From: Paludisphaera mucosa | GTDB lineage: Bacteria > Planctomycetota > Planctomycetia > Isosphaerales > Isosphaeraceae | Assembly (NCBI RefSeq): GCF_029589435.1 | Contig: NZ_JARRAG010000002.1 | Coordinates: 248,001 to 312,000 of the forward strand | Direction: 5' to 3' | Length of the DNA: 64,000 nucleotides | Shown: piece after piece, positions 58,834-62,379 of the stretch | Layout: each line of letters begins with the position of its first letter | Numbering within the stretch: the stretch's first letter is position 1 | Position numbers and translations under genes: made by a program | The notes under the pieces: generated by a model | The model's database searches: none | What the model saw: only the letters and a program-made list of their open reading frames with translations | Told to the model about the DNA's origin: nothing

Positions 58834-59033
58834 CGGCCGGGGTGCGAATCGCTCCCGGGCAAGCCACTTGTCGGATGCCGGAGCTGAGTGCGACGATGCC
58901 ATGGCGGCCGGCTCCGTAAGACCGGCAGGTGTGGGGACCGCCATCATCCCGCCCATGCCGGGCCCCGTCTTCCCGGGGCCGGGACACGATCCTCGGTGAA
59001 ACGGCCCGGGGCCCGAAGTGGAGCATCACGGCG

Positions 59034-59321
59034 ATGTGGGAAGCGGCCAAGCTCCGATTCCCGACCGGCCGCCTCGTCCGGGGAGTGGTGATCGCCCATC
59101 ACCCCTTCGGGATCTTCGTCGATCTAGGCGACCCGATCGCGACCGGCCTGGTCCAGATCACGGACTTCGTGGACAGCGGGCGTATGACCCCCGAGCAATA
59201 CCCTCGGCTCGGCGAGTCGATCGAAGGCGTCGTCCTGGGGCACACCGACGACCATCGAAAGCAGGTCTGGTTGGGCGTCAAGCCAAGCCAGTTACGCGCG
59301 GCGTCGCAAGCGAACGATTGA
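59034..59321 (+). CDS. S1 RNA-binding domain protein
   Basis: The protein has 95 residues and is almost entirely one S1 domain: GRLVRGVVIAHHPFGIFVDLGDPIATGLVQITD, then GESIEGVVLGHTDDHRKQVWL. Single-domain S1 proteins of this type bind RNA or ribosomes in a general way. The ATG at 59034 follows a GGAG element about 10 bp upstream; a longer frame to 58929 has an Arg/Pro-rich extra N-terminus and is not preferred. It lies next to the Rrf2 gene, on the opposite strand. Confidence 0.75.
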   Translation: MWEAAKLRFPTGRLVRGVVIAHHPFGIFVDLGDPIATGLVQITDFVDSGRMTPEQYPRLGESIEGVVLGHTDDHRKQVWLGVKPSQLRAASQAND

Positions 59322-59348: not shown

Positions 59349-59780
59349 CTAGGACGGCAGGCCGACGTCGCAAAGCGGGACGACTGGGTTCGTCGAGTCC
59401 AGCAGGTCCTGCAACGTCACGTTCCGGAAGGCGTCCTCGAACGTCGCATAGGCCTGGTCCAGCTCGCGATGCAGCGGGCAGAGCGACGTGTGCGAGGGCA
59501 GGCCGAGCGGGCAGTGGCGGATCCGCTCGATCGGGGCCACCGCGTTGACCACGTCGAGGATCGTCACCGCGGCGGCGGGCTTCGCCAGCTCATAGCCGCC
59601 CCCGGGCCCCGGACGCGACTGCACCAGGCCCGCCGCCGCCAGGTCCTGCAAGACCCGGTTCAGGTACGAGCGAGGGGTCTTCGTCCGCTTCGCCAGCACG
59701 TCGGCCGACGCCGGCCCCGGCGGCAGGCCGGCCAGGCAGACCGCCGCCCTCAACGCATACTCGGCCGTCTTCGGCAGCAT
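59349..59780 (-). CDS. Rrf2 family transcriptional regulator, NsrR-like by context
   Basis: The protein has 143 residues. The winged helix lies at 1-65 ([40 protein letters not shown]), with the usual YELAKP end. NsrR and IscR bind an Fe-S cluster with three Cys close together near 90-105. This protein has only Cys90 and Cys101 there (HCPLG...LCPLH), with His89, His97 and His104 nearby, plus a distal Cys137. It could still bind a cluster or a heme-like ligand. Its start faces hmp across a dyad-rich region, so it most likely represses hmp and senses nitric oxide. This is inferred from position. Confidence 0.88.
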
Positions 59781-59891
59781 GGAACCTCCGCGGATCGATC
59801 ACGGCTTCGGCTCGGCCCGCGACTCTTCCAAACCCCGGCCGCCCGCCTCTTCCAGCCTAACATACGCCCTCACCAAAACCTCTGCTCAATC

Positions 59892-59935
59892 CTACACCTT
59901 GACGTCCAGATTTAAATCTGTATATTCAGGTGTAG
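59892..59935. promoter_or_regulatory. Two concentric dyads, candidate operator for the Rrf2 regulator
   Basis: An inner perfect 14-bp palindrome (59907-59920) and an outer 8-bp repeat pair (59892-59899 with 59928-59935) share exactly the same centre. The site is AT-rich inside very GC-rich DNA and sits between the divergent Rrf2 and hmp genes. It is a strong candidate for a dimer-binding operator. Confidence 0.75.
59899..59926 (+). promoter_or_regulatory. Sigma70-like promoter of hmp, inside the dyad
   Basis: TTGACG (59899-59904) and TATATT (59921-59926) are 16 bp apart. The inner 14-bp palindrome of the candidate operator fills almost all of the spacer. A regulator bound there would directly block RNA polymerase. 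The predicted start is near 59933, about 66 bp before the hmp ATG. Confidence 0.65.
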
Positions 59936-59998
59936 ATTTGCCGCCGTCGCCGAGGGTCGGCGGCGTGAGGCGTCCCCGGCCCCCTTGGAGAGCCCGCG

Positions 59999-61258
59999 AT
60001 GCTCAGTCCCGAAACGATCGAGATCATCAAGCGCATCACGCCCGTCGTGGCCGCGAACGCCGAGGCGATCACGCGGCGGTTCTACCCGCGGATGTTCGCC
60101 GGCGACCCCGAGGTGAAGGCGTTCTTCAACCAGGCCCACCAGCATTCGGGCGGCCAGCAACGGGCTCTCGCCGGGGCGATCTGCGCCTACTTCTCGCACA
60201 TCGACGACCCGGCGGTCCTGGGCCCGGCGGTGGAGCTGATCGCCCAGAAGCACTGCTCGCTGGGGATCCGCCCGGACCAGTATCCGATCGTCGGCAAGCA
60301 CCTGCTGGGGGCGATCCAGGACGTGATGGGCGACGCGGCGACCGACGAGATCCTCGGGGCCGTCGCCGAGGCCTACGGGTTCCTCGCCGACGTCTGCATC
60401 CGTCGCGAGGAGGAGATCTACCGACAGCAGCGCGAGGCCGTCGGCGGCTGGAACGGCTACCGTTCGTTCATCGTCGACCGCAAGGTCCCCGAGAGCGACC
60501 TCGTGACCTCGTTCTACCTCCGCCCGGCCGACGGCGGCCCGCTGCCGGCGTTCGAGGCGGGCCAGTACGTCACGGTGAAGGTCGACCTCCCCGAGACGCC
60601 GACGTCGCCGCGCAACTACAGCCTGTCCGACCGGCCCGGCCTCGACCACTACCGGATCAGCGTCAAGCGCGAGCCGGGCCTCGCCGCCGGCGCGCCCGAC
60701 GGCCTGATCTCCAACCACCTGCACGACGTCGTCCTCGCCGGCGAGGAGCTTCAAATCGGCCCCCCCTGCGGCGAGTTCACGATCCCGACCGCTACGGCCG
60801 CCGATCGGCCGATCGTCCTGCTCGCCGGCGGCATCGGCGTCACGCCCCTGCTGGCGATGGCCAAGGACCTCGTCCATCGCGGCGGCCACGCCCCGCTCTA
60901 CTTCCTCCAGGCCGCCCGCAACGGCCGCGTCCAGGCGTTCAACGACGAGATCCGGGCCCTGGAGATCTCGTCCGACGCCGTGACGACCCACGTCATGTTC
61001 GACGCCCCGCTCGCCGACGACCTGACGACCGGCCGCTGCGATTCCACCGGCTTCATCGACGCCGACTTCCTCCGGCGCTGGGCCCCGATCGACGACGCGA
61101 GCTTCTGCTTCTGCGGCCCGAAGCCGTTCATGCAGTCGGTCTACGCGATCCTCAAGGAGCTGAGCGTCGACGACGACCGCATCCGCTTCGAGTTCTTCGG
61201 CCCCCGCCAGGAGATCCTCGCCGCCGCCCTCGTCCCGGCCCAGGGCCTACGCATCTAA
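59999..61258 (+). CDS. hmp: Flavohemoglobin, nitric oxide dioxygenase
   Basis: The protein has 419 residues. The globin domain comes first (about 1-140), with the B10 Tyr in RRFYPRMF and the proximal His in QKHCSLGI. The FAD-binding region follows ([25 protein letters not shown]) and then the NAD-binding part ([27 protein letters not shown]). Hmp oxidises nitric oxide to nitrate. GGAG lies about 8 bp before the ATG at 59999. The natural protein probably ended near EFFGPRQEI. The last five codons (QGLRI) and the stop lie inside the left inverted repeat of an insertion sequence. All catalytic domains precede that point, so function is probably kept. Confidence 0.95.
61241..61256. repeat. Left inverted repeat of the insertion sequence
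   Basis: Inward sequence CAGGGCCTACGCATCT. It matches the right end at 14 of 16 positions; positions 7 and 8 differ. It contains the start of the hmp stop codon and overlaps the transposase stop codon. Confidence 0.8.
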
Positions 61259-62379
61259 TTCGCCGGAAAACCTTGTAATGCACGTATGAGATAGCTCTCG
61301 TCGAGGGCTGCACTGAGCCTCTTGGCCTTGATGCTGCCCCTTCCCGGGTCCTGCTGGAGCAGCGATGCGGCGACCCTTCGGATCAGGCCCAGGTTCGCCC
61401 CGGCATGGCCCGCCGCCGTCCTGTTCGAGTCCTCGCCGAAGGCCACGTCGAGCACCCAGTGCAGTTCGTTCTCGATCGTCCAGTGCGACCGGACCAGCCG
61501 CCCGAGTTCCTCCGCCGTCCCCCGCAGACTGGTGATGTAGTAATGGGCCGTGCTGGTGCTCTTCCCCTTGACCGACCGCTCCCGCTCGACCAGCACCACC
61601 GCCGCCACGTCCGGCCACTCGGGCGGCATCTCCCCGGGGTCGTAGACGACGGTGACATACCGCTCCTCATGCCTCCCGTGGCCGTCCTCGACCTGCTCGT
61701 GGCCGTCGTGCTCGAACCCGGCGAAGTCCGCCTCGCAGGCCCGGTCGAACACCGCCTGCACCGCCTCGAGCAGGCTCGGCTGGTTCCCCTTCACGGCCAG
61801 CAGGTAGTCCCCGCCCTCGCCTCGGATGTGCCCGGCGATCCCCTTCTGGCACCCGGCGGCGTCGATCGTCACTAATGCCCCTTTCAGTGCCAGCACCTTC
61901 AGGAGTTCGGGGATGGCGGCGATCTCGTGTGACCCGGCGGCAACCGTCTCCTGCCCGAGGATAACCCGGTTCTCCGCCGCCCAGGCGTTGACCAGGTGGA
62001 GGCACTCGCTGAACGTGTCGCCGGGGGCCGACCGGACCGCCTTGCCGTCGATGGCGATGTGTCGCAGGCCGGTGGCCTGACATACCGACCCCAACCACCC
62101 GGCGACGCACGCCCCGAACTTCTTGGGGTCGAGCCGGGCGAAGAGGCGGTAGAAGGTGTCGTGGCTCGGGATGCCGTTGGGAAGGGCAAGGAACCGCCTC
62201 AGCCATCCCTCCTTGGCCTTCCCGAACCGCTCGACCTCCTCCCACGAGTCGGCCCCGGCGATGACCACACACAGGGCGATGACCAGGATGTCGGTGAGGC
62301 CGTGCCTCTTCGTCCGGTCGACCCGGGGGTCCGGCAACTCGGCGAAGTAACGAGCGAGCGATATCTCCGGACTCGGCAT
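61255..62379 (-). CDS. ISAs1-family transposase
   Basis: The protein has 374 residues and appears complete. The N-terminus [25 protein letters not shown] is the ISAs1 start. The DDE catalytic set can be read: Asp in [10 protein letters not shown], Asp in [13 protein letters not shown], and Glu in [23 protein letters not shown] and [14 protein letters not shown] are further family blocks. The stop lies in the left inverted repeat and overlaps the hmp stop by two bases. The intact frame and catalytic residues suggest the element could still move. Confidence 0.93.

Follow-up and report, generated by a model that had tools for sequence, protein, structure and literature searches.

The hmp promoter of Paludisphaera mucosa raises a question of symmetry. 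In the window, by which we mean the whole 64-kb stretch of DNA that was analysed, two inverted repeats share one exact centre at this promoter. Do they form one special site, or do they reflect something more ordinary? Read directly from the sequence, the pair is CTACACCT…CAGATTT|AAATCTG…AGGTGTAG, with its common centre at 59913.5, and it spans TTGACG-16-TATATT. The left outer arm, CTACACCT, lies at 59892-59899 and the right outer arm, AGGTGTAG, at 59928-59935. A perfect palindrome of 14 bp, CAGATTTAAATCTG, occupies 59907-59920. The promoter elements are on the plus strand: the -35 box TTGACG at 59899-59904, a spacer of 16 bp at 59905-59920, and the -10 box TATATT at 59921-59926. The letters and coordinates of these elements, taken from an earlier note on this DNA, were borne out by direct reading. 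The same note described the palindrome as filling the spacer, and gave the outer half-sites as TACACCT. The palindrome is indeed perfect over 14 bp but leaves two of the 16 spacer bases uncovered; the outer repeat does have 8 bp and is co-centred, but TACACCT represents only 7 of them.

Perfect 14-bp palindromes are ordinary by themselves, with 14 in the window versus 13.5 per random Markov window. The combination of the inner palindrome with the outer arm exceeds chance. When an outer arm of 8 bp or more with the same centre was required in addition to the 14-bp palindrome, the window gave a single case and the 60 Markov windows gave none. Searching with the 44-bp pattern, its two 7-bp gaps left free, gave a single match, and none of 100 shuffles matched at ≤3 mismatches. 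In the 8.2-Mb genome, an exact match to CAGATTTAAATCTG exists only here.

The genes on both sides are those claimed earlier, an Rrf2 regulator on the minus strand and the flavohemoglobin Hmp on the plus strand. The hmp gene (59999-61258) encodes an NO-inducible-type flavohemoprotein of 419 aa, which scored 499.7 bits with NCBIfam PRK13289 (cut-off 432). Its likely ribosome-binding site, judged from the sequence, is GGAGAG at 59987-59992 on the same strand. The regulator gene, divergent from hmp (59352-59780, with the stop codon at 59349-59351), encodes 143 aa. The protein belongs to the Rrf2 superfamily according to PF02082 (104.2 bits, cut-off 30, E = 7.7e-30) and NCBIfam rrf2_super TIGR00738 (103.1 bits, cut-off 73.3). 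A small S1-domain protein (Pfam S1) is encoded at 58929-59321 on the plus strand, downstream of and convergent with the regulator gene. An ISAs1-family transposase gene (61255-62379, minus strand) overlaps the hmp stop with its end. The last Hmp residues differ from those of relatives, which are themselves variable there, and terminal inverted repeats of the ISAs1 element were looked for with nothing clear seen.

A simple explanation for the shared centre came from the upstream regions of the Rrf2 orthologues, which have a 24-bp palindrome with the consensus ATTCTACACCTTAAGGTGTAGAAT in common. The hmp promoter carries two of these side by side, each an imperfect palindrome. Operator 1, ATCCTACACCTTGACGTCCAGATT, lies at 59889-59912 with its centre at 59900.5, on the -35 box. 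Operator 2, AATCTGTATATTCAGGTGTAGATT, lies at 59915-59938 with its centre at 59926.5, over the -10 box and the predicted start region. They scored 23.9 and 24.7 bits, respectively, with a held-out matrix trained without the six Paludisphaera loci, whereas no other place in the 64-kb window exceeded 2.8 bits. The two centres are 26 bp apart and their midpoint is 59913.5. The left outer arm is the left half of operator 1, the inner palindrome consists of the right half of operator 1 and the left half of operator 2, and the right outer arm is the right half of operator 2. The dyads are concentric because two adjacent palindromes pair outer half with outer half and inner half with inner half. As any pair of palindromic operators yields such dyads, the shared centre needs no further cause, and a puzzling nested symmetry is reduced to the general rule that adjacent palindromic operators always look concentric. 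On the sequence evidence, the nested symmetry thus appears to be not a special site but two ordinary 24-bp palindromic operators.

This explanation depends on how well the 24-bp palindrome is conserved. Orthologues of the regulator were taken from whole genomes and from named contigs (the best 80 of 185 relatives). We left out L093, L098, and L115, which have no start motif, L057 with masked bases, 7 of 107 loci as duplicates over the first 150 bp, and 10 loci of a second Rrf2 group, after which 89 non-redundant loci remained. Regions of 330 bp were scanned with a threshold of 10.1 bits, the maximum of the shuffles. Within this distance, 80 of the 89 loci had a site above the threshold. Without retraining of the matrix on the shuffles, this figure is too generous, and held-out figures were used instead. 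When the regions were split into halves, 42 of the 45 held out exceeded the maximum of 450 shuffles. After retraining on shuffled regions, 12–19 of 89 of these passed the 10.1-bit line; therefore, the weakest single sites are unsafe one by one. Among the nine loci that had no site above the threshold within 330 bp is that of P. soli (L002/L040), whose operators lie beyond this limit because its regulator and hmp stand further apart.

Two sites within 32 bp were found in 27 of the 89 loci, at spacings of 26 (7 loci), 27 (17), 28 (1), and 29 bp (2). The first site of L085 fell just below the line, at 9.6 bits. With L002 added to the 27, the tandem set has 28 loci, which were used for the symmetry test below; with L002 and L085 both added by hand, it has 29, which were used for the tree. 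The spacing of 26–29 bp may follow from the distance between the -35 and -10 boxes alone, without contact between dimers. In five other loci (L073, L082, L090, L094, and L097), two operator-like sites stand 173–175 bp apart before the regulator, a layout that could permit looping.

The register of the operators on the promoter is also conserved. The sigma-70-like -35/-10 pair is the sole match in 59700-60100 (1 found, 0.1 expected). Its -35 box forms the centre of operator 1, and its -10 box belongs to the left half of operator 2. Of the 27 tandem loci, 26 have TTGAC at the middle of operator 1, and a TTGA-centred 24-bp palindrome is also found in 24 further loci that are not in the tandem set. 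Many of those 24 have a plain -10-like hexamer downstream, by eye and uncounted, and some single sites, such as that of L010, are centred elsewhere. Both operators are present in the five tandem Paludisphaera promoters. Alignment of these promoters gave 33 invariant columns in a 50-bp box versus 7 of 56 gapless columns outside (start codon excluded), so that the conserved island is the operator–promoter box.

Linkage to hmp was consistent. We found hmp in 15 of 99 genomes (E ≤ 1e-60), and each of the 15 genes is flanked by the start motif of a divergent Rrf2 gene and preceded by one or more operators. This supports the earlier idea of an Rrf2-type site over the hmp promoter, which is here regulator-linked and conserved. 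Eleven of the 15 are tandem and four single (G002, G016, G056, and G090). Among the 89 regulator loci, hmp is divergent from the regulator in 36, and in one other locus (L006) the NO reductase subunit gene norB adjoins it. Two conserved operators, the promoter register, and the association of regulator and operator with hmp are direct observations. It is highly probable that the two sites are adjacent operators of the divergent Rrf2 regulator on the hmp promoter, where binding and repression are expected by analogy with NsrR and its kin.

Site layout was compared with a regulator tree, built by a quick method from 142 columns with three loci of the second Rrf2 group as outgroup, in which many forks are unresolved. 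All 29 tandem loci fell inside one clade of 54 rows (SH-aLRT 99). Of the loci with hmp, 24/24 inside that clade were tandem versus 0/12 outside. The tandem label requires seven changes on this tree. This distribution would fit a second operator that arose once, with later losses. One Paludisphaera genome (G002; L012, L038) has a diverged regulator–hmp pair with 63% hmp identity, a single operator, and a place in another clade of the regulator tree; this pair is possibly an exchanged cassette.

A different explanation would take the concentric arrangement as one composite site, with one dimer or protein on the inner palindrome in the spacer and another on the outer repeat. The window itself favors it: both dyads are perfect, and the halves match better across operators (7.5 of 10 positions) than within them (5.5 of 10). 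A better match across than within is also seen in L002 and L004, two of the four remaining tandem Paludisphaera promoters, and both outer arms of G005 carry paired changes. However, the 28 tandem loci together showed no excess for the composite arrangement. Of 10 positions, half-site identity was 6.04 within operators, 6.00 in the concentric pairing (p = 0.74 against within), and 6.23 in the direct pairing. Swapping operator 2 between loci gave 5.94, and 653 of 2000 permutations reached the observed concentric value. None of the other four tandem Paludisphaera promoters has a perfect inner palindrome. Perfectly paired outer arms are seen in three of the five (G000, G003, and G005), but G001 and G004 lack them. 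The earlier note had proposed to look for both dyads in close relatives; the half-sites are conserved there, but the perfect symmetry is mostly not kept. In the 24 non-tandem loci mentioned above, the 24-bp palindrome is centred on TTGA and not on the spacer. We consider a composite site very unlikely. The conserved units are two side-by-side 24-bp palindromes, and the concentric layout proposed earlier does not stand as the site itself.

If the sites are two operators, they could still be served by a regulator other than the product of the adjacent gene, such as a second Rrf2 paralogue or an NO regulator of the CRP/FNR type. There are four Rrf2 matches in the genome itself, and the related Rrf2 group (among L020–L030) has a partly similar site, for example TTGGACCTTGACATCCAG. 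Against this, operators are found at most loci of the adjacent regulator, with or without hmp alongside, and the site layout tracks the tree of this regulator. In an operator scan of the 99 genomes (stricter filters, with scoring of 80 candidates in each), only 9 gave matches at E ≤ 0.02, and all nine model matches were within 60 bp of an Rrf2 match; the scan was insensitive and missed the window's own sites, and therefore cannot count targets. Taken together, we regard another regulator as highly improbable. The inverted repeats might instead act as a hairpin or cruciform, in an RNA leader, an attenuator, or a recombination site, and not as protein sites. This would account for long co-centred inverted repeats, with the ISAs1-family transposase gene lying downstream of hmp, but its probability is negligible. 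The dyad lies over the promoter and is nearly all upstream of the expected start, so that it would not be transcribed; the arms vary among relatives without general pairing; and across loci from many planctomycete genera the sites are conserved in the form of palindromes that resemble binding sites.

Two adjacent operators of the divergent Rrf2 regulator therefore remain our preferred reading, and further sites were sought with the operator model R1 in six Paludisphaera genomes. In the genome of the window, the only matches at E ≤ 5 were the two hmp operators; 150 of 742 first-look candidates were scored, so further targets in this genome may be missed. In G004, the model gave four rows at three further places. 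One extra operator-like site of that genome (C68:8645, L130; E = 0.54) stands upstream of a membrane protein gene, which is followed by an ORF that by eye resembles a molybdopterin oxidoreductase; this is perhaps a nitrate or nitrite target.

Other neighbors of the regulator deserve mention. A secreted-looking CxxCH protein of about 430 aa is encoded divergently from the regulator in 27 of the 89 loci (L048, L064, L070, L113, and others). An operator-like site was found in 27 of these 27 loci, and hmp is present as well in 6. The one member tested gave no Pfam family and no significant solved relative. We regard this gene as a candidate new NO-stress gene. Neither hmp nor the CxxCH gene is found beside the regulator in 32 of the 89 loci. 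In the second Rrf2 group (L020–L030 except L022), which is about 50% identical, sites such as TTGGACCTTGACATCCAG occur upstream in several loci and often precede a gene with a protoglobin-like start (by eye). This group may be a sister system whose operator code has shifted.

The regulator itself departs from canonical NsrR. PRK11014 was the best-scoring equivalog, but with 55.4 bits versus a cut-off of 182. In place of the three cysteines of NsrR, the protein has C90-x10-C101 with no cysteine between, as in 88 of the 89 orthologues; the exception is L006, which has a middle cysteine. E7, C90, H97, C101, and H104 are present in 89/89 orthologues, of which only C90 and H97 are independent evidence, because E7, C101, and H104 belong to the search patterns or the selection motif. 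In a search of solved structures, the nearest were 6y45 (E = 1e-17) and 6hsd (E = 1.5e-17), followed by 5n07 (E = 5.9e-6). The chains of the first two, labelled 'Rrf2 family transcriptional regulator', we take to be RsrR. The [2Fe-2S] cluster of RsrR is held by two cysteines including Cys110, by Glu8, and by His12. Glu8 and Cys110 have counterparts in E7 and C101, but the residue aligned with His12 is R11, so that the RsrR ligand set is not complete here. The metal site of the sensor is probably a planctomycete variant.

The operator differs as well. The canonical NsrR operator, gATGyAT-N5-ATrCATc, had 0 matches in the window at ≤3 mismatches, versus 1.41 expected by chance, and was rejected as the site. 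By its sequence, the operator appears to be a planctomycete variant. The regulator would work like NsrR without being canonical NsrR, with its NO response assumed from NsrR kin.

In the mechanism that we propose, the Fe–S-loaded regulator would occupy both operators in the resting state, one dimer on the -35 box and the second on the -10/start region. The bound dimers would exclude RNA polymerase from hmp, and the regulator might also damp its own gene. When NO damages the cluster, the dimers would leave, Hmp would be made, and NO would be destroyed. As 26 bp correspond to about 2.5 helical turns, the dimers would sit on roughly opposite faces of the helix. Binding, repression, the cluster, and the NO response are modelled here on NsrR and its kin. 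A broader proposal, to which we give slightly less than an even chance, is that Planctomycetota have a separate NO-sensing Rrf2 branch with its own cluster site (E7, C90, and C101, with H97 or H104 replacing the set of three cysteines) and its own operator code. One clade would have gained the second operator by building the hmp -10 box into one half of a palindrome, and the promoter would be clamped by two dimers from opposite faces of the helix. Beyond this locus, the results provide an operator motif that can be tested for a role in NO defence in Planctomycetota, and they point to an Rrf2 sensor with unusual conserved cluster-ligand candidates and to a CxxCH protein beside the same regulator.

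Known Rrf2 regulators share single features with this system. The planctomycete protein is far from the IscR cut-off (45.6 of 207.55 bits). By spacing, C90 and C101 presumably resemble the first and third cysteines of IscR; in contrast to IscR, the middle cysteine is missing and the targets are different. H104 resembles His107 of IscR, a residue named in an excerpt of PMC4432287. Thermus NsrR, as described in part of PMC5748679, has three cysteines and another palindrome, which shows wide variation among the operators of this family. The small regulon of S. coelicolor NsrR (hmpA1, hmpA2, and nsrR; PMC4432287, in excerpt) is likewise centred on hmp, with autoregulation and 23-bp operators of an 11-1-11 form (excerpts of PMC4432287 and PMC9338935). 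Unlike the two cysteines here, however, its ligands are three cysteines, Cys93, Cys99, and Cys105, together with Asp8 (same excerpts), and its structure (5n07) is a weaker relative than those of RsrR. Among the matches listed in full-text searches on planctomycete NsrR, Rrf2, or flavohemoglobin regulation, no account of the present operator appeared.

The closest parallels in layout are S. venezuelae RsrR and B. subtilis hmp. RsrR, also the best solved-structure relative, has two 11-3-11 sites with 1 bp between them according to excerpts of PMC5015018, which by arithmetic places their centres 26 bp apart, a spacing equal to that of the hmp operators here, and its target gene is divergent too. 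In the same excerpts, its recognition sequence is called very different from that of ScNsrR, and it is tied to NAD(P)H and glutamate metabolism, unlike the regulator of hmp. In B. subtilis, the mapped hmp promoter overlaps predicted tandem NsrR sites (PMC1274295, in part), so that an Rrf2 regulator, an hmp target, and tandem sites over the promoter are common to both systems. The differences, within the same part of that paper, are that its gATGyAT-N5-ATrCATc half-site is absent here and that nsrR stands alone, whereas the planctomycete regulator gene is divergent from hmp. The suggestion that the site differs from the classical NsrR dyad thus holds for the half-site, a planctomycete variant by its sequence, but not for the layout, as tandem Rrf2/NsrR sites have been published (PMC1274295, PMC5015018; excerpts). 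The tandem Rrf2 layout is already known from Bacillus hmp and Streptomyces rsrR.
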